Positions 17,091-31,107 of a DNA stretch of 64,000 nucleotides are shown piece by piece. The DNA is taken from assembly GCF_029263785.1 (NCBI RefSeq), contig NZ_JAJUFE010000006.1, positions 1 through 64,000 of the forward strand, written 5' to 3'. The translations under genes and the position numbers were made by a program. Origin of the DNA: Pusillimonas sp. GTDB taxonomy: Bacteria; Pseudomonadota; Gammaproteobacteria; Burkholderiales; Burkholderiaceae_B. The notes below the pieces were generated by a model. That model was not told the DNA's origin. It was given only the letters and a program-made list of their open reading frames with translations, and did not search any database. How positions within the stretch are numbered: position 1 is the first letter of the stretch; the number at the start of each line of letters is the position of its first letter.

Positions 17091-17796
<706 letters not shown>

Positions 17797-17804
<8 letters not shown>

Positions 17805-18549
17805 GCGTTGCCTCGCCCAAGTAGACTTCCTTCACACGCTGGTCGGCCGCAATTTCGGCCGGGGTTCCTTCGGTAAGTACCTTGCCCCCTACCAGTACCG
17901 TGATGCGCTCGGCAAAACGAAACACCAGACCCATATCGTGTTCAATAAACACCACCGTGACATCGCGCGGCAAGTCAGAAATTACCTCGAACAGCTCGGC
18001 ACTGTCTGTGGACGGAATGCCCGCCGCCGGTTCGTCAAGCAACAGGACCTTGGGCTTGGTGGCAAGGGCCAGGGCAATCTCGACAAGACGTTGCTTGCCA
18101 TAAGGAAGATTGCGCGTGACAGTGTTGATGTCCTGATCAAGACGCAGCGTTCTGAGCAGCACCAGGGCTTCCTCGATCGCGTCCTTCTGTTCGGCGACCG
18201 TACGGAACCAGTTACGGTATAGCCCTTCGCGCTCGCTGATGGCGAGTACGACAGACTCAAGGACCGTCAGCCCCAGGAACAGGGTATTGATCTGGAATGT
18301 GCGGGTCATGCCCATCTTTACACGCTCGTGCTGCAAGCGTGATGTGATGTCCTGATCACCAAAGAACACCTTGCCCGAGGTGGGCGCCAGCGCACCCGTC
18401 AACAGGTTGATGAAGGTTGTCTTGCCCGCGCCATTGGGACCAATGATGGCATGACGGCTACCCGGCTCGAATGTCAGCGAAATATCGCTGTTGGCCTTGA
18501 AGGCACCCCACTGCTTGGAGAGGTTTTCAGTACGTAGCGTGGTATTCAT
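17797..18549 (-). CDS. ABC transporter ATP-binding protein, LivG type
   Basis: Second ATPase of the importer, 250 residues. Walker A is GPNGAGKTTFINL, the signature is the LivG-style LPYGKQRLVEIA, Walker B is KVLLLDEPAAGI, and FIEHDMGLVF supplies the switch region. Its start overlaps the livM stop by four bases (ATGA), so translation is coupled. Confidence 0.9.
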
Positions 18550-19577
18550 GCTTGGCCTCCTGAATGAGCTGCACGGGCGCGGCGACGCTCACGCCAGGCG
18601 TCCACTGCACCCAGAATGCCGCCGCTACCCACCATGACGACGATGACCAGGAAGAGCCCGATCCAGAACTGCCAGTACACGGGGTTGATGTTTGCAATTT
18701 GATCCTGTGCGAACATGAAGACGAGGGCGCCGATCAACGCACCGTACAGGCGACCCGTACCCCCCAGCACCAGGATGATCAGCAAGTCGGCGGAACGCAG
18801 GAAGCCCAAGGAATCCAGACCCACAAACTGGGTGGTCTGCGCCAGCAAGGCACCGGCGATACCAGCGATACCGGCACCAAGCGTGTACACCGCAATCAGG
18901 CGGCGATTGATGTCGGCACCGATAGCGGGCATGCGCTTGCCGCCTTCACGGATACCGATCAGGCTCAGGCCGAACGTAGAACGCGCAATGCGCCGAACCA
19001 GAACAAAGACCAGGAAAAGCACGGCGAAGCTATAGAAGAAGCCCGTCTTGCCTTGCAGGTCGAATTCAAAAATGCCAAGAAGCTTCCACATCTGGATGCC
19101 CCACAGACCATCCACGCCACCAGTGATGAAGGCGGCCTTGTTGGCGATTTCATAAAGCATCAGGCAAATGCCGAGCGTGACCATGAGTCGGGTGAGATCA
19201 TGTCCACGGACCACCAGGAAACTGGTAAGGAACCCGAACAAGGCCGCGACAATGGCACCCAGAAGCATGCCGCTGATAGGCTCGCCCCATCCATGCACCG
19301 AGAGCAGGCCGGCAGTATAGGCGCCAAGACCGAAGAAGGCGGCATGGCCGAGCGACACTATGCCCGCATAACCCAGGATGAGGTCAAGCGACAAGGCAAA
19401 CAAGCCCAGGATCATCATCTGGCTGGCCAGCACCAGGTATCCCTTGAAAAGGAAGAAGGCGATGAAGGGCAGCAGCCAGAAAATGATTTCGTATTTGCTC
19501 CACTTCGCGTTTGGCACGCGAGGCGCAGGCAACTTGTCCGAAATGGACAAGGAAGAGAGAAGATTCGATTTCGTCAT
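18546..19577 (-). CDS. ABC transporter permease, LivM type
   Basis: Inner-membrane permease of 343 residues with about eight to ten helices. The family segments ILGYAGIVSLGHAAFFGLGAY and the EAA-like region IGIREGGKRMPAIGADINRR are clear. It overlaps both neighbours by four bases. The N-terminal 25 residues before the first helix are polar and basic, consistent with a cytoplasmic start. Confidence 0.9.
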   Translation of the reverse strand: MTKSNLLSSLSISDKLPAPRVPNAKWSKYEIIFWLLPFIAFFLFKGYLVLASQMMILGLFALSLDLILGYAGIVSLGHAAFFGLGAYTAGLLSVHGWGEPISGMLLGAIVAALFGFLTSFLVVRGHDLTRLMVTLGICLMLYEIANKAAFITGGVDGLWGIQMWKLLGIFEFDLQGKTGFFYSFAVLFLVFVLVRRIARSTFGLSLIGIREGGKRMPAIGADINRRLIAVYTLGAGIAGIAGALLAQTTQFVGLDSLGFLRSADLLIILVLGGTGRLYGALIGALVFMFAQDQIANINPVYWQFWIGLFLVIVVMVGSGGILGAVDAWRERRRARAAHSGGQA

Positions 19578-20440
19578 GAACGCCTCGAGATGAGTCCGGA
19601 GGGGAAGAGGATGAGCAGCACAACCATCAGCGCATAAATGACGAAGGCTCCGACCGAGGGCACGTAGTATTTGCCCGCCACGTCAAAGACTCCCAGCACG
19701 ATAGCCGCCAACAACGGACCACTGATGGTTCCGGCGCCGCCAACTGCCACGACGATCAGGAAGTACACCATGTACTTGAAGGGGAAAGTGGGATCCAGGC
19801 CAAGCACATCGATGCCCAGGGCACCGCCCAAACCGCCCAGACCCGAGCCCAACGCAAACGTCACGCTAAATACACGGCTGACGTTGATGCCCAGACCAGC
19901 CGAGGCCTCCTGATTGTCGACCGAGGCGCGAATCTGTGCACCAAGGCGCGTACGCTCGATCAGGAAGAAGAGAGCACCCGTGACAAGCACAACGACGGCG
20001 ATCAGGAATAGTCTGTAAATACCCAGACCGACCCCGAAGACAGAGACCTGTCCGCGCAGCCACTCGGGCAAGTGAACCGGCTGCTGCGACGGACCCCACA
20101 CATAGATGCCGGCGGCCACGACCATGAAGGTCAAACCAATCGAGAACAGCACCTGGTCGAGCGGGTCGGCGCGATACAGTCGCCGATACAAGGTTCGCTC
20201 AAGGACAAATCCGACTATGGCCGCGGCAATGAATGCTGCGGGCAAGGTCAGTAAGAACGGCACGTTCAATTGACGCATGAGCTCGACCGCCACAAAGCCG
20301 CCGACCATGGCAAACGCGCCGTGTGCCAAGTTGATGAAGTTCATTAGGCCCATCGTGACAGACAGGCCGACGCTGATCAGAAAGAGCAAGGCGCCGTAGG
20401 CAACCCCGTCGAATAGTACGCCAAACAAGTTTCCTAGCAT
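19574..20440 (-). CDS. ABC transporter permease, LivH type
   Basis: Partner permease of the importer. From the ATG at 20440 (MLGNLFGVLFDG) it is 288 residues, with the LivH motifs GLSVTMGLMNFINLAHGAFAM near the N-terminus and SVDNQEASAGLGINVSRVF in the cytoplasmic loop. AGGGTGG lies just upstream of this ATG; a TTG nine codons earlier is less likely. It is the first gene of the livHMGF run, and no periplasmic binding protein gene is found in the 460 bases upstream or elsewhere in this sub-block. Confidence 0.9.
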   Translation of the reverse strand: MLGNLFGVLFDGVAYGALLFLISVGLSVTMGLMNFINLAHGAFAMVGGFVAVELMRQLNVPFLLTLPAAFIAAAIVGFVLERTLYRRLYRADPLDQVLFSIGLTFMVVAAGIYVWGPSQQPVHLPEWLRGQVSVFGVGLGIYRLFLIAVVVLVTGALFFLIERTRLGAQIRASVDNQEASAGLGINVSRVFSVTFALGSGLGGLGGALGIDVLGLDPTFPFKYMVYFLIVVAVGGAGTISGPLLAAIVLGVFDVAGKYYVPSVGAFVIYALMVVLLILFPSGLISRRS

Positions 20441-20514
20441 GGCGGCCACCCTGTGCTCCAGCGGCAAACTAGCGCGCTTTCTGCAAACGTATGCGGCATA
20501 GTGAATTCACTCCC

Positions 20515-20542
20515 AATATGCGAGATTTACGAAAATTATCAA
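20515..20542 (-). promoter_or_regulatory. Possible sigma70 promoter of the livHMGF operon
   Basis: On the minus strand TTGATA (20537-20542) and CATATT (20515-20520) are separated by 16 bases, and lie about 75 bases upstream of the livH start. The spacing is acceptable, but the -10 box is weak. Confidence 0.35.
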
Positions 20543-20574
20543 ACTTGGAATTGCTGTAACAAATAACGAACAGA

Positions 20575-20611
20575 CTCCGGGCCATGCGGCTTTGGGGCCG
20601 ATCTCCCGGAG
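20575..20611. repeat. GC-rich hairpin downstream of the vanB-like gene
   Basis: CTCCGGG and CCCGGAG form a seven-base stem with an inner GGCC/GGCC pairing. It could end or stabilise the vanAB-like transcript, but there is no T-run. Confidence 0.3.
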
Positions 20612-20902
20612 CGAAATTACCTGCTAATTAAGGTGCTTCGTTGATGTTGCCAGACCTTGAACCTGCGGCAATGCGTCAGGATATTGAACTGTGAGATTGT
20701 ATCGAGTTCGCCATTCCATTTATGTCTGGGCCGAGGGCCTGCCTGGAAATGCGAGTATGCGCCAAAAACGAAAGCCGCATGAGTTCGCAATGCATGTATA
20801 CGCGAACAAATATCCAGGACAGGCCGTTTCGAGGCCGCCGATAGTGTATCTCAATTGAAGTGCGATTGCGCCTCTTTTTACAATATAGAATTGATCGCTT
20901 GA

Positions 20903-21859
20903 TCAGATATCCAGGACCAGCATGGGGCTCTTGGAACGTGAGCAACAAGGCGTGAACTGATCATTGGCGGCGTGCTCGGCATCGGTAAGATACAAGTCGC
21001 GATGATCGGGCGTACCCTCAAGAACGCGGGTCAGACAAGTACCACATACCCCCTCTTCGCACGAAACCGGAATGAATACGCCAGCGTCGTCGAGAACCTG
21101 GGTAATAGGCTTGTCGGCCGGAATGGTAAACACCTGGCCTGTACTGGCGATCTTGACTTCGAATGAGGTGTCGCCACTGGTATCGACTTCGGCCGCCCCG
21201 AAATATTCAAGGTGAATACACTCGGATTTCCAACCAGCCTCTTTGGCCGTATTGACGACATAGTCGATGTATCCCGTGGGCCCGCAAACGTAAAGGTGAG
21301 TATCCGGCTGCGGATTTTCGAGAAGGGGCTTGAGGTTGAGCTTCTGGCTGTCGTCGCCGTTGTCAAAGTGAAAATGCACCCTGTCGGCGAAGGCCGACTT
21401 GCTGATGTCTTCGCGGAATGCCATGCGCTCGGGCGAACGGGCGTTGTAATGCATTTCGAAGTCAGCGCCGATGTGGCTTAGGCGACGGGCCATGCAGAGA
21501 ATGGGCGTGACACCGATACCGCCCGCGAAAAGAAGCGTGCGCTTGGCCTGTACCAGTTCGAAGTGGTTCTTGGGCGAGCTGATCTGAATGATGTCGCCCT
21601 GCTTGATGTCGTCGTGCACCGCGATCGAGCCGCCACGGGACTCGGGGTCGCGCAATACACCGATAACGTAGCGGTGCTGTTCGCCGGAATCGTTAAGCAG
21701 CGAATACTGGCGGATCAGGCCATCGCGAATATAGACATCGATGTGCGCGCCGGCACTAAAGGAAGGTAGGGGTTTGCCATCAATACTAGCCAGCTCCAGA
21801 CTGACTATCTCCTCGGCTTCCTGCACCTTGTTGACGACTTTAACGGTGAGTTGACTCAT
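20903..21859 (-). CDS. vanB: Rieske oxygenase reductase component, VanB-like
   Basis: Electron-transfer partner of the adjacent oxygenase, passing electrons from NAD(P)H through flavin and a [2Fe-2S] cluster. The 318-residue protein has an N-terminal flavin domain (IRQYSLLNDS), a nucleotide-binding domain (LLFAGGIGVTPILCMA, LYVCGPTGYID) and a C-terminal plant-type ferredoxin domain with the cysteine pattern CEEGVCGTC and a later C. This is the class IA order seen in vanillate demethylase reductase. It lies 78 bases after the oxygenase gene. Vanillate as the substrate is inferred from the oxygenase, not proven. Confidence 0.86.
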   Translation of the reverse strand: MSQLTVKVVNKVQEAEEIVSLELASIDGKPLPSFSAGAHIDVYIRDGLIRQYSLLNDSGEQHRYVIGVLRDPESRGGSIAVHDDIKQGDIIQISSPKNHFELVQAKRTLLFAGGIGVTPILCMARRLSHIGADFEMHYNARSPERMAFREDISKSAFADRVHFHFDNGDDSQKLNLKPLLENPQPDTHLYVCGPTGYIDYVVNTAKEAGWKSECIHLEYFGAAEVDTSGDTSFEVKIASTGQVFTIPADKPITQVLDDAGVFIPVSCEEGVCGTCLTRVLEGTPDHRDLYLTDAEHAANDQFTPCCSRSKSPMLVLDI

Positions 21860-21937
21860 TGAAATATTCTACTTTAGCGGTTTTACCCGCATTACTGCGG
21901 GCCAGGGTACCGGCCCGCTTACTTTAATGATGCAAGA

Positions 21938-22987
21938 TCAGGCGGGTTCGGCGGTGGCTTGCTGCTGCTCGTCCTTGACAATTCGATCGAGGATGCGACG
22001 AGCTTGGACGCCCCCCGTATCGATATTAAGCATGAGCAACTTACGGTCAGGATTCGCCTGGAGATTTCGCTGCTGAGCCTCCAGGACGGCAAGATCCTCA
22101 GCGAATATTTTACCCTGTCCGTCGCGGATTACTTTTGTCAGCTCGGGATCGTCGGCCTTGAAGTTGCGCGCCATACCCCAGAAGTACCAATGAGACGTCT
22201 CGGTTTCGGGAGTGATGAAGTCGACAACAATGGCCGCTGCCTTGTGCGCCGGGTCGGCCTCGAAGCCGCCCTTGCCTGCCAACGCCACGCCCACGTCAAT
22301 CAGAATGTGACTTGGCGGCGTAAACCGGGAGATCTGCCAGCGATCTACCGGGACGTTATCCGGAAGGTCGTTGTACCGAAGTGCCGCAGCCCAAAATGGG
22401 GGAGCGAAGATGTTTTCCATGTAGCGGCTGGTAATGACCGTATCACCTTCGACCTTGGTATTGACAGGCGTTTCGTCGATTTCGTCCTGACCGATACTTG
22501 TCGTATGAACATAGGCCTCGTGGGTAAGATCCATGAGGTTGTCGATCATCAGGCGATAATCGCAGTTGATGTGATACAGGCCGCCACCGTATGCCCACTC
22601 GGGGTCTTCTGCCCACGCCAGATGCGGAATGAGGGCTTCATCGGCCTTTTCGGCATCGCCTGGCCAGACCCAGACAAAGCCATAGCGCTCTACGACAGGG
22701 TAGCTCTTGACACAAGGGAAGCCTCCTACGCGCTGCATGGGCATTGAAACGACCTTGCCGTCGCAGCCCATGACCAGACCGTGATAGCCACATACAAGGT
22801 TGCCGTTCTCTACATAACCCAAAGACATGGCCGCGCCGCGGTGTGGACAGAAATCCTCGACTGCACACACCTTGCCTTCGTGACCACGATAAAACGCGAT
22901 GCGCTCATTGCAAATGGTGCGCCCCAAGGGCTTGGATTCGATTTCGTCGGGGGTACACGCTACGTACCAGGTATTTTTCGGGAACAT
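21938..22987 (-). CDS. vanA: Rieske non-heme iron oxygenase, vanillate O-demethylase-like
   Basis: Catalytic component that would demethylate vanillate to protocatechuate plus formaldehyde. The 349-residue protein has the Rieske cluster ligands C47-P-H49 and C66-x2-H69, and the mononuclear iron site in LMDLTHEAYVHTTS. The segments that follow (GDTVITSRYMENIFAPPFW, VPVDRWQISRF, VDFITPETETSHWYFWGMARNF) are strongly VanA-like. GAGG lies six bases before the ATG. Related enzymes act on other methoxylated aromatics, so the exact substrate is open. The upstream inverted repeats suggest control by the neighbouring MarR protein. Confidence 0.88.
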   Translation of the reverse strand: MFPKNTWYVACTPDEIESKPLGRTICNERIAFYRGHEGKVCAVEDFCPHRGAAMSLGYVENGNLVCGYHGLVMGCDGKVVSMPMQRVGGFPCVKSYPVVERYGFVWVWPGDAEKADEALIPHLAWAEDPEWAYGGGLYHINCDYRLMIDNLMDLTHEAYVHTTSIGQDEIDETPVNTKVEGDTVITSRYMENIFAPPFWAAALRYNDLPDNVPVDRWQISRFTPPSHILIDVGVALAGKGGFEADPAHKAAAIVVDFITPETETSHWYFWGMARNFKADDPELTKVIRDGQGKIFAEDLAVLEAQQRNLQANPDRKLLMLNIDTGGVQARRILDRIVKDEQQQATAEPA

Positions 22988-23010
22988 GATCGCCTCGCTT
23001 TGAACTTACG

Positions 23011-23024
23011 TTCAGTGTACTGAA
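23011..23024. promoter_or_regulatory. Candidate operator upstream of the vanA-like gene
   Basis: TTCAGT-GT-ACTGAA is a perfect inverted repeat with six-base arms, 24 bases before the vanA start and next to a smaller GAAC...GTTC repeat (23002-23013). The size fits a MarR-family dimer, and the MarR gene lies just upstream. Confidence 0.45.
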
Positions 23025-23065
23025 TATATGGATCAATTTTACTGCTGAGACGCACTCATTCAAGC

Positions 23066-23077
23066 AGGGTTAACCCT
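23066..23077. promoter_or_regulatory. AGGGTTAACCCT palindrome at the marR stop / vanA upstream region
   Basis: A perfect 12-base palindrome covers the marR stop codon, 79 bases upstream of vanA. Its 10-base core GGGTTAACCC occurs again upstream of the amide-transporter binding protein (31098-31107), which is why it is listed. Confidence 0.3.
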
Positions 23078-23597
23078 TATTTCCCGTTTCTTCTGTGGAA
23101 GATATTTCAGTCGGAGCGGGGCGCCGTTGCGACAGCGGTGCCCGGCTTTTTGAATTGTTGATATGCACGAGCTTGGTCAGCAACGCCATGAATTGGGCTT
23201 CTTCTTCGGCGCTAAAACCTTCAAAAATACGTTGATGCAGGCGCTGGATACCCGGAATGGTACTTTGCAGGAGCGCGCGTCCGGCGTCGGTCAGATACAG
23301 CGCTCTTTGCCGCCGATTATTCGGGTCAAGATACCGCACCAGCAATTTTTTTTCTTCGAGCCTTATTGCCACGCTGGCAGCGGTCGAGGTGTCGATAGCC
23401 ACAAGCCCCGCCAACGACACCTGATCGATGCCCGGATGTTCGACAAGTATGCGCAGGACGGCATACTGGATTGGGGTTATCTTTGAACCGAGTTCATCAT
23501 AAAAGATAGAAGCGGAAATCTGCTGGGCGCGCCGCATCAGGTGACCGGGCTGGGTATACAGATCGGTCAGGGCCGGGTTTGCAGCCTCTTTGGTCAT
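23070..23597 (-). CDS. MarR-family transcriptional regulator
   Basis: A 175-residue winged-helix regulator. The HTH and wing are visible around residues 55-110 (VSLAGLVAIDTSTAASVAIRLEEKKLLVRYLDPNNRRQRALYLTDAG in segments), with dimerisation helices on either side and a low-complexity C-terminal tail. MarR proteins commonly repress aromatic catabolism genes and release DNA on binding the aromatic ligand. It is directly upstream of vanA on the same strand and is the natural candidate to control it. It is distinct from the GntR-type VanR of Pseudomonas and Acinetobacter. Confidence 0.87.
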   Translation of the reverse strand: MTKEAANPALTDLYTQPGHLMRRAQQISASIFYDELGSKITPIQYAVLRILVEHPGIDQVSLAGLVAIDTSTAASVAIRLEEKKLLVRYLDPNNRRQRALYLTDAGRALLQSTIPGIQRLHQRIFEGFSAEEEAQFMALLTKLVHINNSKSRAPLSQRRPAPTEISSTEETGNKG

Positions 23598-23937: not shown

Positions 23938-24813
23938 TCAGCCCAGGCGCGCACGGCGAAACATCAGGGGCGACTCCCCGACATGCTCCATGAAAAAGCG
24001 GCTGAAATTCGAGGGATCCTTGAAGCCCAGGTGATAAGAGATATCGCTGACCGACATCGCCGAATATAGCAGCAGGCGCTGGCCTTCCAGGACGAGTCGA
24101 CGATGCGCAATCTTGAGCGGCGGCTCTCCGGCGACTTCCCGACACGCGCGGTGCAGCGTACGTTCGTTCACGGCCAGCATGGTGGCATAGCTTGCAACCG
24201 ACAACTGTTCGCGAAAATGCTTCTCGAGCAGGCCCCGGAACTGTTCGTACAGCAGGCGCCTGCGCTGGGTATCAAGTGCAAGGGCTGCGGATTCTTGCGG
24301 CTGGTGCGTAAGGTGACCAAGTATGCGAAGTATGTTGGCAGACAACATGACACCCAACGATTGAGGTGCAGTCACCAGACGCTCGGCGATAGTCCCCATC
24401 GCGGAGGCAATGTCATCGAAAGCGAAGGAGTCGGCAGTAAAAGACATGACTCCAGGTCGGGACATGGCTGCCTCCAGAGCGGGCTCATTGGCAAACTGGA
24501 TAAGCTCGCGCAGGTAGGCGTCTGAAATAGTCAGAAGCCTGCCAGAAGATCGTGGTGCATAGCGAAAACTATGCACCACCAAAGACGGGATCAGCACCAG
24601 GGACGGTGCAGTGAAAGCCTCCTGCCCAAGGTCGAAAGCGACCTCACCGGCGCCGCTTTCTATCAGTGCCATCTGAAAAAGATCGCGGTGCCGGTGTGGG
24701 AAGAGCTCCCAGTTGTATTTGCGAATACGCGTCGAAATCTTTTCGACATGAACAAAGCGAAAGTCGCCGCCCGGGATACGCCCTTCGTAATGTATGAACG
24801 GCGGCCCTTCCAT
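23938..24813 (-). CDS. AraC-family transcriptional regulator
   Basis: A 291-residue regulator with an N-terminal cupin-like sensor domain (about 30-130, containing FPHRHRDLFQMALIESG) and two C-terminal HTH units (about 190-290). The second carries the family signature SVSDISYHLGFKDPSNFSRFF. The sensor start resembles PobR-type activators of aromatic metabolism. It sits 69 bases downstream of the amidase, last in a run of seven same-strand genes that includes a complete transporter, so it probably regulates that system in response to the imported compound. The ATG at 24813 has no clear Shine-Dalgarno. Confidence 0.88.
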   Translation of the reverse strand: MEGPPFIHYEGRIPGGDFRFVHVEKISTRIRKYNWELFPHRHRDLFQMALIESGAGEVAFDLGQEAFTAPSLVLIPSLVVHSFRYAPRSSGRLLTISDAYLRELIQFANEPALEAAMSRPGVMSFTADSFAFDDIASAMGTIAERLVTAPQSLGVMLSANILRILGHLTHQPQESAALALDTQRRRLLYEQFRGLLEKHFREQLSVASYATMLAVNERTLHRACREVAGEPPLKIAHRRLVLEGQRLLLYSAMSVSDISYHLGFKDPSNFSRFFMEHVGESPLMFRRARLG

Positions 24814-24882
24814 GACGCTATGCGTCCCGGCGTGCCTGAACGCCAGGCGGACACGAACCGTAGACCGCCACAGCTGGTTCGC

Positions 24883-26268
24883 TCATGGTTCGGCTAGCGT
24901 TGCCGTCCCGATAACCTGCTGTACTGCCGCTGCCGCCTCAAGGGCTTGCGCTTCATGAAAGCGTCGCGCAACCAGTTGCATTCCATTGGGCAAGGCCACA
25001 CCTGGCAGACCCAGCAGATTGACCCAGGGAATATTTCGCATCTGGTCAAAGAGACGCTGGGTCTGCTCGCGATCGAGCATGTGGTCGAAGTCGAGTGGTG
25101 GGGTCTCCATTCCGGCAACCGGGCAAAGAACCAGGGGATGTTCCTCCATCCACCCGGCCACCTCGCGCTGAACCTTCCGTCTTTCGATGAAGGCTTTGAT
25201 GTAATTGCGCACTTCGGATCCCAGGTTATAGATACCGAACATGGCTTCGATATGTTGGCGATTGCTTTCGCCCAATAGATGGCCGAACTCGGGCATGCCC
25301 GTTTGCATGAGCTCGGTTCCAATGATTTCGGCCCAGAGTTCGGGTGCCCGCTTCGCGTTGGGAATCGCGGCATCGACGACTTCGTAACCGGCGTCACTGA
25401 GAATACGGGCGGTTTCATCGAGCTTTGCGGCGACAGCTGATGAAACCAGAGCCCCAGTCTGGTCGAGCATGCGGGCGACTCGCGGCCGCTTTCCGTTCGA
25501 ACCGGAGCGGGACACCGGAACTGGCACCGTTGCGGGATCGGACCAATGCTGACCCGCCAACACCGTATAGGCCATCCACAGGTCTTCTACACATCGTGCC
25601 ATCGGCCCGATGCAGGACATGAGGTCGACAGTTGGAGGCCCATCAAGGGGAGGCAGCGTCTTGGAGGCAGGAGTACGGCCAGCCGAAGGACGCAGCCCGT
25701 AAATTTCGCAAAAGGTCGAGGGCACCCGGATAGAACCGCCATAGTCCAGGCCCAGTCCAAGCGGCGCCATGCCAGACGCTACGGCGGCGGCATCGGCCCC
25801 CGAAGACCCGCCGGGACTCAAGCTTGGGTTGCGCGGATTGAGCGTGGCGCCGTACAGGTGACTGACGGTGTTCCAGCGAATTTGCAGATCGGGCTGATTG
25901 GCCTTGCCCAGAATGATGGCGCCGGCCTGCCGCAGCCGGCTTATCGCCACCTCGTCGGACTCGGAGCGACGATCTGCCCAAGCCGGTAGCCCCTCGGTAT
26001 GCTTCGTGCCCTGCACGTCGTAGTGATCTTTGATACTGATGGGAATACCATCCAGCGGCAGGTCGGTTCTATCAGAGTGATGCGCGTCCGCCTCGCGGGC
26101 CTCTGCCAGCGCCTGCTCTTCGCGAAGCTCGACGAAGGCATTCAACTTGGAGTTCACCTTCTCGATGCGAGCAAAGTGCGCACGCACCAATTCTTCGCGA
26201 CTGACTTCACGCCGTGCAACGAGTTCGCGCATACGTGTGGCGGTCAAGCGCCAAAGATCGTCTTTCAT
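24883..26268 (-). CDS. Amidase-signature family hydrolase
   Basis: Hydrolyses an amide to acid and ammonia (or an amine). The 461-residue protein has the complete Ser-cisSer-Lys machinery: lysine in PISIKDHYDVQG, the central serine in GLDYGGSIRVPS and the nucleophile-loop segment LSPGGSSGADAAAVASG. It is not GatA itself, since no gatB or gatC adjoins. AGGAG lies five bases before the ATG. The 70-base gap behind an amide-type transporter suggests it cleaves what that transporter brings in. The substrate is unknown. Confidence 0.88.
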   Translation of the reverse strand: MKDDLWRLTATRMRELVARREVSREELVRAHFARIEKVNSKLNAFVELREEQALAEAREADAHHSDRTDLPLDGIPISIKDHYDVQGTKHTEGLPAWADRRSESDEVAISRLRQAGAIILGKANQPDLQIRWNTVSHLYGATLNPRNPSLSPGGSSGADAAAVASGMAPLGLGLDYGGSIRVPSTFCEIYGLRPSAGRTPASKTLPPLDGPPTVDLMSCIGPMARCVEDLWMAYTVLAGQHWSDPATVPVPVSRSGSNGKRPRVARMLDQTGALVSSAVAAKLDETARILSDAGYEVVDAAIPNAKRAPELWAEIIGTELMQTGMPEFGHLLGESNRQHIEAMFGIYNLGSEVRNYIKAFIERRKVQREVAGWMEEHPLVLCPVAGMETPPLDFDHMLDREQTQRLFDQMRNIPWVNLLGLPGVALPNGMQLVARRFHEAQALEAAAAVQQVIGTATLAEP

Positions 26269-26338
26269 TGCGTCTCCTGTTGTAGTGTCCGCGCAGTCCA
26301 GCGGGCCGCAGACGGACGTTTATGCACAAAGGCTAATA

Positions 26339-27070
26339 TCAATCGACCTTTCCCTCAAGCCCGGCAAACTCGCCGATGGTGTCGGGGTCGGACAGCAAGG
26401 CGGGATCTATTTCCCTGACGATGGCACCTTTCTGCAACCAGAGCACACGCTGCGCCATGGCGGCGATAAACCCCACATCCTGCTCTACCACCACGACGGC
26501 AAGCGACGTCGATTGCGCACGCCGAACCAAGTAGTCTTCGATCTCGTCGACGATGGATGGCTGGATTCCTTCTGTCGGCTCATCGAGCAATAAGAGACAC
26601 GGCTCGCCACACAGTGCGCGCGCCAGGGCCAGGATCTGTTGTTCCCCTCCGCTCAGCGCGCCGCCCTTGCGGTCAAGCAGACCGGCCAGAATGGGGAACT
26701 CGTCGGTTGCACGCTCGACCGCTTCAACGCGGTTTCGGCCTACAGCCGCCGCGCCCAGCGCAAGATTCTCCCGAACTGTCAGCGAGGGGAAGATGTCTCG
26801 ACCCTGCGATACATAGCCCATGCCCAGCCGGGCGCGCTTGTGCGTGGGCAAATGAGTAATGTCCTGACCACGGAAAGTAACGCGGCCGGAGGTACTGGGA
26901 ACGTGTCCAACCAATGCTTTCATAAGCGTCGTCTTGCCCATTCCGTTATGACCCAGGACCCCGACAATCTCCCCGGCCTGAATCTGAAACCTGAGTTCTC
27001 GAAGAACGGGTATGGTTCCGTAACCCGCCGACAGATCATTCACGTCAAGCAGTGCTTCTTGGGTGGTCAT
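26339..27070 (-). CDS. ABC transporter ATP-binding protein, UrtE/LivF type
   Basis: Second ATPase of the amide-type importer, 243 residues. Walker A GHNGMGKTTLM, signature LSGGEQQILALA and Walker B LLLLDEPTEGIQPSIVDEI are present; the DEPTEGIQPSI wording is characteristic of UrtE of urea transporters. Its start overlaps the upstream ATPase stop by four bases. The urea substrate itself is not implied, as no urease genes adjoin. Confidence 0.88.
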   Translation of the reverse strand: MTTQEALLDVNDLSAGYGTIPVLRELRFQIQAGEIVGVLGHNGMGKTTLMKALVGHVPSTSGRVTFRGQDITHLPTHKRARLGMGYVSQGRDIFPSLTVRENLALGAAAVGRNRVEAVERATDEFPILAGLLDRKGGALSGGEQQILALARALCGEPCLLLLDEPTEGIQPSIVDEIEDYLVRRAQSTSLAVVVVEQDVGFIAAMAQRVLWLQKGAIVREIDPALLSDPDTIGEFAGLEGKVD

Positions 27071-27792
27071 CGTGCCTCCCTGCCGTGCTGGCCCAAGTAG
27101 GCGTCCCGCACTTCGATATTGCGCACGATTTCCTCCATGGTGTCTTCTACCAGTACGCGCCCCCGATGAAACACGGTGACGCGTTCGGCAATACGCCGTA
27201 TGAAGTGCATGTCATGTTCAACGATGATGAAGCTTCGCTTGCCACGCATGCTTTCCAAGAGGGAAATCGTACGCTCGACTTCGCCGGCGGTCATGCCCGC
27301 AGCCGGCTCATCAAGAAGGACCAGCTTGGGGTCGTTGATTAGTATCATGCCCAGCTCAACCCATTGACGGTGACCATGCGCAAGACTGCCCGCGAGCGTG
27401 TCCTTATGTTCGGTCATGTGAATGCGCTCGAGCATGGCATCTGCCGCTTCGGCCGCATGCGCGGCATTCATGCGAAATCGCGCTGCGATCAGCAGGTTCT
27501 CGCGCACGCTCAGGCCATTGAACAGATTCGGAACCTGGGTCTTGATACCGACGCCCATTCGGGCAATTGCAAAAGAGGGCAAATTGGTGATGTCCTTGCC
27601 GTACAAGGTGATACGGCCGGAAGTTGGCTTGAGCTGCCCCGTGAGCATCTTGAAAAAAGTGCTTTTCCCGGCACCATTGGCCCCAATGAGGCAACGCAGC
27701 TCCCCTTCGCGCAGCTCGAAATTGATGCCCGCCACGGCCGCCACCCCGCCAAAGGTGCGCCACAGCTCAGAAGTTTGCAGAATGACGCTCAT
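27067..27792 (-). CDS. ABC transporter ATP-binding protein, UrtD/LivG type
   Basis: First ATPase of the importer, 241 residues: Walker A GANGAGKSTFF, UrtD-like signature LAHGHRQWVELGM, Walker B LVLLDEPAAGMT and VEHDMHFIRRIA. UrtD proteins carry the same HGxxQWxE-type signature in place of LSGGQ. It overlaps the permease gene upstream by four bases. Confidence 0.88.
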   Translation of the reverse strand: MSVILQTSELWRTFGGVAAVAGINFELREGELRCLIGANGAGKSTFFKMLTGQLKPTSGRITLYGKDITNLPSFAIARMGVGIKTQVPNLFNGLSVRENLLIAARFRMNAAHAAEAADAMLERIHMTEHKDTLAGSLAHGHRQWVELGMILINDPKLVLLDEPAAGMTAGEVERTISLLESMRGKRSFIIVEHDMHFIRRIAERVTVFHRGRVLVEDTMEEIVRNIEVRDAYLGQHGREAR

Positions 27793-28790
27793 CGCCGACC
27801 TCCGGCGCGGACCAACCTGGATGACACACGGTCGCGTATCGAAGGCACTATGCCGTTGGGGACAAGCAGGACGGCAATGATGAACAGCAGACCCAGAGCA
27901 ATTTCAGGGCTGATGCGCGAAACGCTTCCCAGCCAGGTAGAAAGCCCCTGCACCAGGAAACACCCCACTATGGGGCCGAACAAAGTGCCTAGGCCACCAA
28001 ACAACACCCACACCACCGCCTGCGCGGTAAACGACAAGGAGAACACCGTCGGCCCAACCGAAGCGCCCCATGCTGCATAGAGCGCCCCCGCCAGCCCCGC
28101 GATTGCAGCGCCTATGCAAAAGACACCCAGCTTGTAGTAGCGAGCGTCATAACCCAGCAGCTCGGCACGCAACTCGTTCTCGCGCACTGCCTCGACCACC
28201 CGGCCAAAGCGACTGGCCACGAGCACCCGCAATATCAGGTAGACGACAAGCAGCAACAGGGCGGATACGTAGTACATGCCTTCGAACGAGAGTACCGCCG
28301 AAGGGTCAAACGGAATGTTGAGCGGTGGAACGCCCGGAATGCCGTTGTACCCACCCAAATGGGCCTTGCCAAATTGATACGCGGGGCCGGACGCACTATT
28401 GATAAGGCTAAGCAGTATGAGCGGAATTGTCAGCGAAATGACCGCGAAATAAACGTCACTGATGCGGCCAAAAAAAGTGAAATAACCCACCAGCAGGGCC
28501 ATCGCCAGTGGTGCCAGCATCGCTGCAGGAACCGCGAGTGTACTGTCGGCCAGGTTGACCGAGATCAGGGCGTACACATAGGCTCCGATGCCGAAGAATG
28601 CCGACTGCCCCAAGGCCAGAATTCCGCCTATGCCCCACACCAGGCCAAGACTGAGCGCAAGCATGGCCAACACCGCAAAAACCGTCAGGTTGTACAAGGT
28701 ATAGACTTCGGTAACCAGCGGAATGGCCAGGACAAGGACCGCGGACACGACAGCCGTGACCCAGAAACCAGGGCGTGCCAATTCGATCAT
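27789..28790 (-). CDS. ABC transporter permease, UrtC/LivM type
   Basis: Integral membrane permease of 333 residues with about ten helices. LALSLGLVWGIGGILALGQSAFFGIGAYVYAL is the conserved N-terminal region (split here as LALSLGLVWGIGG and ALGQSAFFGIGAY), and VVEAVRENELRAELLGYD forms the coupling loop. WGIGGILALGQSAFFG is closer to UrtC than to LivM. The start overlaps the upstream permease stop (TGATG). Confidence 0.88.
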   Translation of the reverse strand: MIELARPGFWVTAVVSAVLVLAIPLVTEVYTLYNLTVFAVLAMLALSLGLVWGIGGILALGQSAFFGIGAYVYALISVNLADSTLAVPAAMLAPLAMALLVGYFTFFGRISDVYFAVISLTIPLILLSLINSASGPAYQFGKAHLGGYNGIPGVPPLNIPFDPSAVLSFEGMYYVSALLLLVVYLILRVLVASRFGRVVEAVRENELRAELLGYDARYYKLGVFCIGAAIAGLAGALYAAWGASVGPTVFSLSFTAQAVVWVLFGGLGTLFGPIVGCFLVQGLSTWLGSVSRISPEIALGLLFIIAVLLVPNGIVPSIRDRVSSRLVRAGGRR

Positions 28791-29656
28791 CAGATACCCC
28801 GCTTGAAGAACCGGCCGGTAATTCCCGACGGCAACACACGCAACAAAATGATCGCTGTGACAAGCAGCATCACTTCTCCAAATACCGAAGTGCTGAGGAA
28901 AGTGGTGATCTGACTGACCGTACCGAGCAAGGCCGAGGACAGGGCGGAGCCTGTGAGGGGCAGTGTGCCCCCAAGGATGACGGTGATAAACGCCTTGGCG
29001 ATATAGGTGAGACCACTGATGGGCAAAACCCCGGTCAGCGGAGCGAAGACCGCGCCGGCCAGACCTGAAACTGCGGCGCCAATACCGAAGGTAATGGAAT
29101 AAACGTGTTTGACGTTGACGCCAAGAGCCGCGGCCATGGGCGCGCTTTGCATGGTTCCCCGGGCGATCAGGCCAAAGGGCGTATGACGCAGCAGGAAGTA
29201 AAGGGCCAGACCAAGCACCACCGCCACGCCGATCACAAAGAAGGTGTAGACACCGGTTTGATACGCACCGATGTGCACCACTCCGAACGGTGGCCGAACA
29301 CCCATCTGGTAATAACCAAACACAGCGGATGCCAGGCCTATGAGCAAGAGGCTGAGTCCCCAGGTCGCAAGAATGGTTTCAACGATTCTGCCGTACAGGT
29401 GCCGGATGATCAGGCGCTCGATGATCATGCCTATGATGGCAACGCACAAGGGGGCCACTACAAACATTGCCACCCAAAAATTTACCCCTGCCCGCACGGC
29501 AAGGATAAATGCGAACCCTCCCAGCATGAGAAACTCGCCATGAGCAAAATTGATCACCCCCATCATGCCAAAGACAATTGCCAGCCCCACGCTGATGAGA
29601 AATAAGCTGGCAATGGCGTACACGACTTCTACGCCGGTGAGCAACGCAAGATCCAT
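28790..29656 (-). CDS. ABC transporter permease, UrtB/LivH type
   Basis: Partner permease, 288 residues. The LivH/UrtB motif GLAIVFGMMGVINFAHGEFLMLGGF is near the N-terminus (GMMGVINFAHGEF is diagnostic), and the cytoplasmic loop contains AALGVNVKHVYS. It follows the binding-protein gene after a 107-base gap that holds a strong hairpin. Confidence 0.88.
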   Translation of the reverse strand: MDLALLTGVEVVYAIASLFLISVGLAIVFGMMGVINFAHGEFLMLGGFAFILAVRAGVNFWVAMFVVAPLCVAIIGMIIERLIIRHLYGRIVETILATWGLSLLLIGLASAVFGYYQMGVRPPFGVVHIGAYQTGVYTFFVIGVAVVLGLALYFLLRHTPFGLIARGTMQSAPMAAALGVNVKHVYSITFGIGAAVSGLAGAVFAPLTGVLPISGLTYIAKAFITVILGGTLPLTGSALSSALLGTVSQITTFLSTSVFGEVMLLVTAIILLRVLPSGITGRFFKRGI

Positions 29657-29706
29657 GCTGATTCCCTTGATCGCTTTAACTGGATGGGCAGTAAGGCGAG
29701 TCCGGC

Positions 29707-29733
29707 GGGAGGGGAAGCCCTACTTCCCCTCCC
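29707..29733 (-). repeat. Strong intercistronic hairpin after the binding-protein gene
   Basis: GGGAGGGGAAG and CTTCCCCTCCC form a perfect 11-base stem with a five-base loop in the gap between the binding-protein stop and the first permease. A second small stem (GGCCG/CGGCC, about 29737-29752) lies beside it. There is no T-run, so partial termination or 3'-end protection of the binding-protein mRNA is more likely than full termination. Confidence 0.65.
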
Positions 29734-29763
29734 CTGGGCCGTAAACCGGCCGGATTCCGGAAC

Positions 29764-30981
29764 TCAAAGATTCATGCTCAGGACATTACAGCTGTTGTCG
29801 CCCTGGCTGACCGGTTCCACCTGCTTCCAGCTGTCAAGCACCTCGAAGCGGCTGTTGCGAACCTCGGCCAGGTACATGTCCATCGTGCAGTAGTGTGTCT
29901 GGGGATGCGAGGCGACCTTTCCGCTGGGGCCTTCGATGGAAATGCCTGACTCGAACGCTTCGATGACTTTTTTGCGATCGGTGGAATTGGCCTTGCGCAC
30001 GGCCTCTGCCCACAGGTACATGCCCTGATAGTCGGCCATGCCCAGCGACCCTACATAACTGTAATCAGGGAAGCGCTTCTTGAAGCGCTCAATGAATTCA
30101 CGGCTGGCCGGGGTATCGAGCTCGTCGAAATAATTCTTGGCGGTGACCAGACCCTCGCTGACCTCAGGAGGCATGCGCATCTGCTCGCCGGCGTCGCCGA
30201 TGGTATGCGATGCCATGGGAATCGACTTGTTCATGCCGGCCGAAGCCCATTGGCCGTAGAATGCGCCGTGTGCGGGTCCGACAAAAACGTTGAAGACAAA
30301 ATCGGGTTTCGCGGATTGAATCTTGCTGATGGTCGGACCGAATTTGTCTACATCGAGCGGGAACAGGTCGAACCCGACGGTTTCACCGCCGTGCTCTTTA
30401 CAGATACGCTCGGCATCTTTGCCCGACAATTGCCCGAAAATATAGTCAGCGGCCAGGATATACATCTTCTTGCCGTGCTTCTGCATCATGTAGGGAATCA
30501 GATTGTCGAGCAACTGACGCGGTGTTGGGCCGGTAATGAACATATTGCGATCGCATGCGCCTTCTGTACCTTCGTTGATCATGTTCATCATGTAAAGGGT
30601 TTTGGCTCGCGACAATACAGGCCGGGCCACTTCGCGGGCGGCACTTGTAACTGCCCCGTGGACCACCGCCACCCTGTCGCGCAAGGCCAGCTGCTGGGCG
30701 TACTGACCATATAGCTGGTTATTGGATTGTGTGTCGTAAGTGACGAGCTCGATCTGGCGTCCCAGCAGCCCTCCATTGGCGTTGATTTCTTCGGCGGCCA
30801 AGCGCAAGCATTGCGCCTTGACTGTGCCAAACAATTGCAGGGGCCCGGACAAATCAAGAAGCACGCCCACCTTGATGACATCGGCTGCCAGGCTGACACT
30901 GGGCAATGCCATGCCGCCCATTGCGAGTCCGGCCATTCCGCCCAGACTCTGGCCCAAGAATTTTCTCCTCCCGTTGCGCAT
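29764..30981 (-). CDS. Periplasmic substrate-binding protein of an amide/urea-type ABC transporter
   Basis: A 405-residue type I periplasmic binding protein (Peripla_BP_6/UrtA-AmiC-like). It begins with a twin-arginine-like or Sec leader (RNGRRKFLGQSLGG, then the hydrophobic MAGLAMGGMALPSVSLA and cleavage near SLAADV). The mature start DVIKVGVLLDLSGPLQLFG and the segment AAEEINANGGLLGRQIELV are typical of the Liv/Urt family. Motifs such as DPRTHYCTMD-like HPQTHYCTMDMYLAEV near the C-terminus resemble amide- and urea-binding members. AGGAG precedes the ATG by eight bases. Its gene leads the operon with both permeases, both ATPases, the amidase and the AraC regulator. Confidence 0.88.
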   Translation of the reverse strand: MRNGRRKFLGQSLGGMAGLAMGGMALPSVSLAADVIKVGVLLDLSGPLQLFGTVKAQCLRLAAEEINANGGLLGRQIELVTYDTQSNNQLYGQYAQQLALRDRVAVVHGAVTSAAREVARPVLSRAKTLYMMNMINEGTEGACDRNMFITGPTPRQLLDNLIPYMMQKHGKKMYILAADYIFGQLSGKDAERICKEHGGETVGFDLFPLDVDKFGPTISKIQSAKPDFVFNVFVGPAHGAFYGQWASAGMNKSIPMASHTIGDAGEQMRMPPEVSEGLVTAKNYFDELDTPASREFIERFKKRFPDYSYVGSLGMADYQGMYLWAEAVRKANSTDRKKVIEAFESGISIEGPSGKVASHPQTHYCTMDMYLAEVRNSRFEVLDSWKQVEPVSQGDNSCNVLSMNL

Positions 30982-31097
30982 AACTTCTTCTCCTGATTTG
31001 ATGGATGATGAAGACTGCTACGCTGCCATTTAATCAGTCGATCACAGAAAACGGAATACCGAAAACCGTCTCGCACTTGTCGATTTCAGACAAAACG

Positions 31098-31107
31098 GGG
31101 TTAACCC
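31098..31107. promoter_or_regulatory. GGGTTAACCC palindrome upstream of the amide-transport operon
   Basis: A perfect 10-base palindrome, 116 bases upstream of the binding-protein start and 116 bases upstream of the divergent hslR start. It is identical to the core found before vanA (23067-23076). Confidence 0.3.

Follow-up and report, generated by a model that had tools for sequence, protein, structure and literature searches.

Seven genes on the minus strand of a 64,000-nucleotide stretch of Pusillimonas sp. DNA (contig NZ_JAJUFE010000006.1, positions 1 to 64,000; hereafter, the window) encode a substrate-binding protein (SBP), two permeases, two ATPases, an amidase-signature hydrolase and an AraC-family regulator. 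Import of an amide is the best-supported function of this set and is well supported. The evidence tips slightly towards a more specific reading, in which the genes form a catabolic operon that would take up an aromatic-acid amide or hydrazide and hydrolyse it. Gene content and order, their conservation, the co-distribution of SBP and amidase, the association of related transporters with amidases (gene fusions in relatives among them) and the misfit to urea transporter models are direct observations; the direction of transport, the class of substrate, the aromatic character of the acid, the part played by the regulator and any metabolic tie to the neighbouring VanAB genes are inferences. A preliminary description of the locus had proposed amide import with hydrolysis. 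That proposal is upheld by the presence of amidase and SBP in the same 5 of 250 genomes, by an amidase at 14 of 18 related loci and by the failure of the transporter proteins to reach the urea cut-offs.

Composition and conservation of the seven-gene set

The SBP (29764–30981, 405 amino acids (aa)) is of the urea/amide type of the HAAT family (PF13458, 282.7 bits; PF13433, 240.2 bits). Its gene is followed by those of permease 1 (UrtB-like, 28790–29656, 288 aa; PF02653), permease 2 (UrtC-like, 27789–28790, 333 aa; PF02653), ATPase 1 (UrtD-like, 27067–27792, 241 aa; PF00005), ATPase 2 (UrtE-like, 26339–27070, 243 aa), which is the counterpart of the amidase-fused ATPase of relatives, the amidase-signature hydrolase (24883–26268, 461 aa) and the AraC-family regulator (23938–24813, 291 aa; PF12833). 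Class by class, the Pfam matches are Peripla_BP_6 and Peripla_BP_5, BPD_transp_2 in both permeases, ABC_tran in both ATPases, Amidase and HTH_18. Strand and order are those first described, and no junction is longer than 107 bases (107, −1, −4, −4, 70 and 69 bases from SBP to AraC, three of them overlaps). No porin gene lies inside the set. The regulator is HpaA-like, and an HpaA identity is not supported by the curated cut-off of TIGR02297 (135 against 274.65 bits).

Of 250 genomes sampled from the family, five, among them that of the window, hold an amidase orthologue (67–86% identity), and the same five hold an SBP orthologue (80–91%, with one partial sequence at 84%). Scanning species genomes with two peptide patterns returned seven loci, three at 31–33% and four at 67–86% identity; the latter, from Pusillimonas caeni, P. 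noertemannii, Eoetvoesiella caeni and an Alcaligenaceae metagenome-assembled genome (MAG), are the same contigs as those of the four other genomes of the 250-genome sample. Among 300 sampled genomes of the order, none but the window's own passed an E-value of 1e-120, and none of the plasmid records passed 1e-60. As far as these samples reach, the exact set thus seems to be rare and limited to a single family.

The order SBP, two permeases, two ATPases, amidase is kept in all five genomes, the MAG contig beginning inside the SBP gene. Since this order is retained throughout, the set is more than a chance assembly. The AraC gene, counted as a member in the preliminary description, comes next after the amidase gene at four of the five loci and is missing from that of the MAG; it is therefore a frequent companion that is not essential to the set.

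The transporter does resemble the Urt type, as first described. Urt models are the best NCBIfam match for all five transporter proteins, and every one of the curated equivalog cut-offs is missed: TIGR03669 for the SBP (336.8 bits against 494.8), TIGR03622 for permease 1 (219.6 against 374.25), TIGR03727 for permease 2 (258.9 against 575.55), TIGR03411 for ATPase 1 (252.8 against 304.1) and TIGR03410 for ATPase 2 (263.4 against 285.8). Of the 31 matches to the UrtA model across the own genome (98.75% complete, 2.70 Mb), that of the window SBP scores highest, with 226 bits where the cut-off is 492.75. Urease alpha (PF00449) was not found in this genome, in agreement with the earlier statement that urease is lacking; urea carboxylase and allophanate hydrolase were not searched for.

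Among solved structures, the SBP is closest to three urea-binding proteins (8tg1, 7s6e and 8hic), followed by the acetamide-binding AmiC (114 bits). Three segments common to the urea binders, and in their core (W/Y at the GxWTS position, YPxxYEG, PRxSN) also to AmiC, are replaced in the window protein. GxWTSxSRK reads GAVTSAARE, with V at the W/Y position; YPxxYEG becomes MNMINEG (mostly YNxxYEG in the sister branch considered below); and SDYxFPRxxN, with its PRxSN end, becomes ADYIFGQLSG, ending in GQLSG. By analogy with AmiC, these segments would line the ligand pocket. The urea-binder segments are also partly replaced in the SBPs of the sister branch. Comparison of the SBP structure model served only for the titles of matching entries. 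Relative to UrtABCDE, then, the window transporter is alike in gene order and best-matching models, but differs in missing all cut-offs and in the replaced urea-binder segments.

The amidase and its link with the transporter branch

PF01425 covers the full length of the amidase (293.6 bits, cut-off 27; model positions 1–444 of 445). K80, S155 and S179 are invariant across eight aligned sequences including the window enzyme. We take K80 to be the catalytic lysine and S155 the cis-serine, and S179 corresponds to the serine nucleophile named in the title of entry 5h6s. The curated cut-offs of two amidase subfamilies are missed, namely PRK07487 (NF005687, 357.6 against 428 bits) and the nitrile-pathway type PRK07235 (NF005565, 117 against 545 bits). 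The nearest characterised enzyme is the hydrazidase of Microbacterium sp. HM58-2 (5h6t and 5h6s), with 42–43% identity over the whole protein, and a Pseudonocardia amidase (8xac) falls within the same range; urethanases are among the next matches after the two closest chains. A weak structure model of the window amidase aligns with the hydrazidase over 417 residues (Z 27.2, root-mean-square deviation 5.4). Strain HM58-2 is reported to use 4-hydroxybenzoic acid 1-phenylethylidene hydrazide, which induces the hydrazidase when it is the sole carbon source (PMC4911476). The window enzyme resembles this hydrazidase in overall identity and in keeping K80, S155 and S179, but carries A158 and E188 where the hydrazidase has glycine, and hydrolysis of acylhydrazides by it is putative.

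Beyond the close orthologues, we analysed 18 loci whose SBP is 44–53% identical to that of the window: nine plasmid loci, from 20 listed of 191 records, and nine genome loci, which are all the places beyond the own genome that passed an E-value of 1e-90 among 349 genomes of the order. In nine of the 18, the transporter genes have an amidase-signature gene as their immediate neighbour on the same strand, and in five the amidase is fused to the second ATPase. Where compared, these amidases are 24–26% identical to that of the window and represent another subfamily; the two that were scanned belong to PRK07235 (843.9 and 804.7 bits, cut-off 545). The nearest solved chains of one of them are 3a1k and 3a1i, from the Rhodococcus N-771 amidase of the nitrile pathway.

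Nitrile genes accompany two of the related transporters. On the conjugative Agrobacterium plasmid pAtAF1_95 (L064:3135–17164), one cluster encodes OxdA, an aldoxime dehydratase (672.7 bits against a cut-off of 600), together with the transporter, an amidase and nitrile hydratase, and nitrile hydratase genes lie about 7 kb from the related transporter of Tistrella pTM2. The Agrobacterium cluster shares with the window the transporter gene order, the amidase right after the second ATPase and an SBP of 48.5% identity. It differs in its PRK07235-type amidase, 24% identical to the window's, and in its aldoxime dehydratase and nitrile hydratase, which are not among the open reading frames examined at 17–36 kb of the window (the family scan covered ten proteins).

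The most surprising result is the fusion of ATPase and amidase in relatives. Five Burkholderiales genomes from three families carry PF00005 and PF01425 in a single open frame with a Pro/Ala-rich linker (L103:13018–15498; L104:2904–5570, minus strand; L105:12086–14653; L106:7586–10096; L107:4981–8304, minus strand); start codons are uncertain, so that the frames as listed give maximum lengths. In two Sulfitobacter plasmids the fusion takes the form of one coding sequence of 2382 bases, free of internal stops and annotated 'amidase' (L112:6986–9367; L113:6986–9367), and a third plasmid record matches the fusion at 83%, in two pieces. Because the fusion occurs in two classes, it is strong evidence, at the level of sequence and in relatives rather than in the window, that this importer branch and its amidases work together. 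Our literature search retrieved no report of an ATPase–amidase fusion or of such transporter–nitrile clusters, which is not proof of absence. Nor did the literature on amidase–transporter systems, the Pseudonocardia amidase or Pusillimonas yield anything of use.

Urea-type transporters are routinely annotated as importers of urea or branched-chain amino acids, and one transporter branch serving amidases would correct many annotations. Such a branch also points to ways in which nitriles, amides and perhaps pollutants of the aromatic amide type enter cells. For the question whether import is coupled to catabolism, an ABC (ATP-binding cassette) ATPase joined to a metabolic hydrolase would offer a direct test.

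The MarR–VanA–VanB neighbourhood and upstream elements

The preliminary description regarded the set as self-contained, and the range it gave (23938–30981) stops short of conserved neighbours at 17091–23597. At all five loci the cassette is followed by a MarR-family regulator (23070–23597, minus strand; PF01047), a VanA-type Rieske oxygenase (21938–22987, minus strand, 349 aa) and, adjoining VanA, a VanB-type reductase (20903–21859, minus strand, 318 aa; PF00111). Both the Rieske and the VanA_C domains are present in VanA (PF00355, 73 bits; PF19112, 173.2 bits), which also matches dicamba O-demethylase (3gb4, 211 bits). A second HAAT transporter with two permeases and two ATPases, but no adjoining binding-protein gene, occupies 17091–20467 on the minus strand. 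A transporter of this kind stands after VanB (about 80–85% identical where present) at three of the five loci, the stretches of the other two ending just past VanB, and so is present in each of the three that reach far enough. The set is thus not self-contained. No remnant of a binding-protein gene was found at 20468–20902 of the window or in the MAG locus (L014), and relatives such as the Eoetvoesiella locus (L013) carry such a gene there. Between AraC and MarR, both named Pusillimonas species have an additional HAAT set.

VanAB occurs without the cassette in all 20 other stretches examined, each around a VanA homologue and chosen from a longer list of VanA places. None of the 20 has an amidase orthologue; MarR adjoins VanA in 10 and the second transporter is present in 6. 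MarR–VanAB is thus a module in its own right. In one genus (g150), mutS lies beside MarR–VanAB without the cassette in three of three stretches (L066–L068), with another HAAT set between them in L066; in the window, the cassette sits between the mutS side and MarR. These arrangements, in which mutS, a chemoreceptor gene and an S4-type gene were identified by eye, suggest that the cassette was inserted into, or lost from, a pre-existing mutS/MarR site. The window VanA shares 68.5% identity with a copy on Acinetobacter pAI01, which has pcaG and a hydroxycinnamoyl-CoA hydratase gene within 6 kb and a GntR gene among its neighbours; this neighbourhood fits a predicted vanillate O-demethylase activity. 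In Eoetvoesiella, the genes upstream of the cassette (L013:15779–18659) resemble, by eye, those of an SMP-30 lactonase, a beta-keto acid cleavage enzyme and a cyclase-family hydrolase.

An alignment of four species shows that in all of them the SBP gene is preceded by the box GGGTWAACCC, three to four bases further on by TTGTCYGAAATCGRCAA (zero or one mismatch), and then by AGACGGTTTT or a close form. In the window, the box reads GGGTTAACCC (31098–31107), and TTGTCYGAAATCGRCAA, a candidate operator of the cassette, lies at 31077–31093 on the minus strand. Of 121 loci, 11 have an exact copy of TTGTCYGAAATCGRCAA, and each of the 11 is an SBP locus from one of the same four species. The element is absent from 340 kb of other own-genome sequence, a sample biased towards transporters and ring-cleavage genes, around which it was picked; a copy with one mismatch lies inside the second transporter (19534–19550). 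We regard TTGTCYGAAATCGRCAA as the best candidate operator for the AraC regulator.

A second copy of the box GGGTTAACCC is placed between the MarR and VanA genes (23067–23076), and the palindrome TTCAGTGTACTGAA before VanA (23011–23024) is a candidate MarR operator. The palindrome TTCAGTRYACTGAA precedes VanA at all five amide loci, as it does in 6 of the 10 MarR–VanA stretches; the exact GGGTWAACCC box does so at three of the five loci and in the same 6 stretches. This box occurs exactly twice in the window (0.15 matches expected, 4 counted over both strands) and is absent from 23 background loci (402 kb). A literature search for it returned nothing of use.

Substrate of the set and alternative readings

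On the reading we favour, the binding protein would capture a carboxamide or hydrazide in the periplasm and the urea/amide-type ABC transporter would import it. The hydrazidase-like amidase would then cleave the cargo to ammonia (or hydrazine) and an acid, and the AraC protein, where present, would probably sense substrate or product and act at the conserved element upstream of the SBP gene. Most likely, the acid released would be small and aromatic, of the kind of hydroxy- or methoxybenzoate; it could be processed by the neighbouring VanAB, with carbon drawn from the acid and nitrogen from the ammonia. An aromatic acyl group is favoured because the replaced SBP segments, the likeness to hydrazidase and the ring-cleavage genes point the same way, none of them being proof. 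Use of aromatic acids is plausible for the own genome, as it holds four LigB-type and four intradiol-dioxygenase matches. A single route through all of these parts is a good deal more doubtful: here a urea-like importer re-tooled for aromatic amides or hydrazides would pass its cargo directly to an amidase waiting on the inner side of the membrane, through a non-covalent ATPase–amidase pair in the window, and the released hydroxy- or methoxybenzoate would pass to VanAB.

Several observations weigh against the favoured reading. The structure models of the amidase and the SBP are of low confidence (mean pLDDT, the predicted local distance difference score, 60.8 and 50.7). The window amidase has A158, at the GGSSxG position, and E188, both glycine in the seven other aligned sequences and also in 8xac and 5h6s. 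Homologous clusters without an amidase, which the preliminary description named as telling against it, do not occur among the close orthologues, but 4 of the 18 distant loci (L059, L060, L102 and L108) lack an operonic amidase. Of these, L059 has none in the stretch though its SBP is the most similar (52.6%), and L060 has one 1.8 kb off on the opposite strand. Three of the five PF01425 matches of the own genome adjoin a HAAT binding-protein gene, and adjacency alone is therefore not special. VanAB adjacency in five genomes may descend from a single event. Finally, GGGTWAACCC occurs at three further sites in the 340 kb of own-genome sequence (L123:17401, L135:9314 and L136:11154), preceding a molybdenum-hydroxylase-like small subunit gene (by eye) and two HAAT binding-protein genes. 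Because it also stands before these three genes, the box is not evidence for a specific pairing of SBP and VanA; it suggests a wider catabolic regulon.

Two candidate interpretations were set aside in the course of this analysis. A specific operator shared by VanAB and the cassette was demoted by the three further box sites beside catabolic or binding-protein genes. Decay of the amidase, raised by A158 and E188, is countered by purifying selection, although the enzyme may have lost activity. Pairwise ratios of nonsynonymous to synonymous substitution (dN/dS) indicate purifying selection on all ten genes tested (for the amidase against P. caeni, dN 0.098 and dS 1.42). The window amidase has 14 unique changes, and its two Pusillimonas relatives 2 and 1, in keeping with its longer branch. 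The lone deviation at position 158 leaves membership of the amidase-signature family standing and puts activity in question.

A simpler possibility is that a small aliphatic amide is imported and cut mainly for nitrogen, as in the fmd system, with VanAB beside the set by history only. The transporter family includes AmiC and published systems for short-chain amides and urea. The fmdCABDEF set of Methylophilus methylotrophus is reported as an operon for uptake of short-chain amides and urea together with a formamidase (PMC10781810). It resembles the window set in encoding binding-protein-dependent uptake with an amide hydrolase and a regulator, but its formamidase is of another family, whereas the window has an amidase-signature enzyme and no porin gene. 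For the chromosomal amiE-fmdA-fmdB-urtABCDE cluster of Pseudomonas veronii, the authors suggest that the transporter may take up formamide (PMC13209695); here too a Urt-type transporter stands beside amidases, but these are AmiE and FmdA, where the window has one hydrazidase-like enzyme and an AraC gene. The 20 cassette-free VanAB stretches and the g150 arrangement, with its suggestion of insertion or loss at the site, likewise favour this reading. Against it, the pocket-flanking SBP segments are unlike those of AmiC and the urea binders, and no FmdA/nitrilase-type formamidase is present in the set, whose hydrolase matches PF01425 only and is nearest to an acylhydrazide hydrolase. We consider an aliphatic amide unlikely, while taking it seriously.

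A promiscuous amidase-signature enzyme acting on a nitrogenous substrate that is not a carboxamide (for example an acylurea, a carbamate or only a hydrazide) is improbable. The urethanases among the next amidase matches and the hydrazidase as closest characterised enzyme speak for it, as does a mycobacterial hydrazidase that is reported to prefer amides over hydrazides, so that specificity appears fluid (PMC10199920); the tie of the sister transporter branch to nitrile-pathway amidases speaks against it. Continued uptake of urea, with the amidase acting on something unrelated, is very improbable: Urt models are the best named matches and the three nearest solved SBP relatives bind urea, but the missed cut-offs and the lack of urease alpha in the own genome put it low, as do the replaced urea-binder segments and the adjacent or fused amidases of relatives.

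The preliminary description also spoke of an uncharacterised pathway. This applies to the substrate of the window set, and not to the kind of system, of which fmdCABDEF and the P. veronii cluster are published examples. Compared with those systems, what is new here is the pairing, next to vanillate genes, of a urea-type importer and a hydrazidase-like enzyme; operons for amide uptake and hydrolysis were already known.

Elsewhere in the own genome, HAAT binding-protein genes lie beside amidase-signature genes at L127:10152–12838 and L126:8181–11079, one pair overlapping on the same strand and the other divergent.

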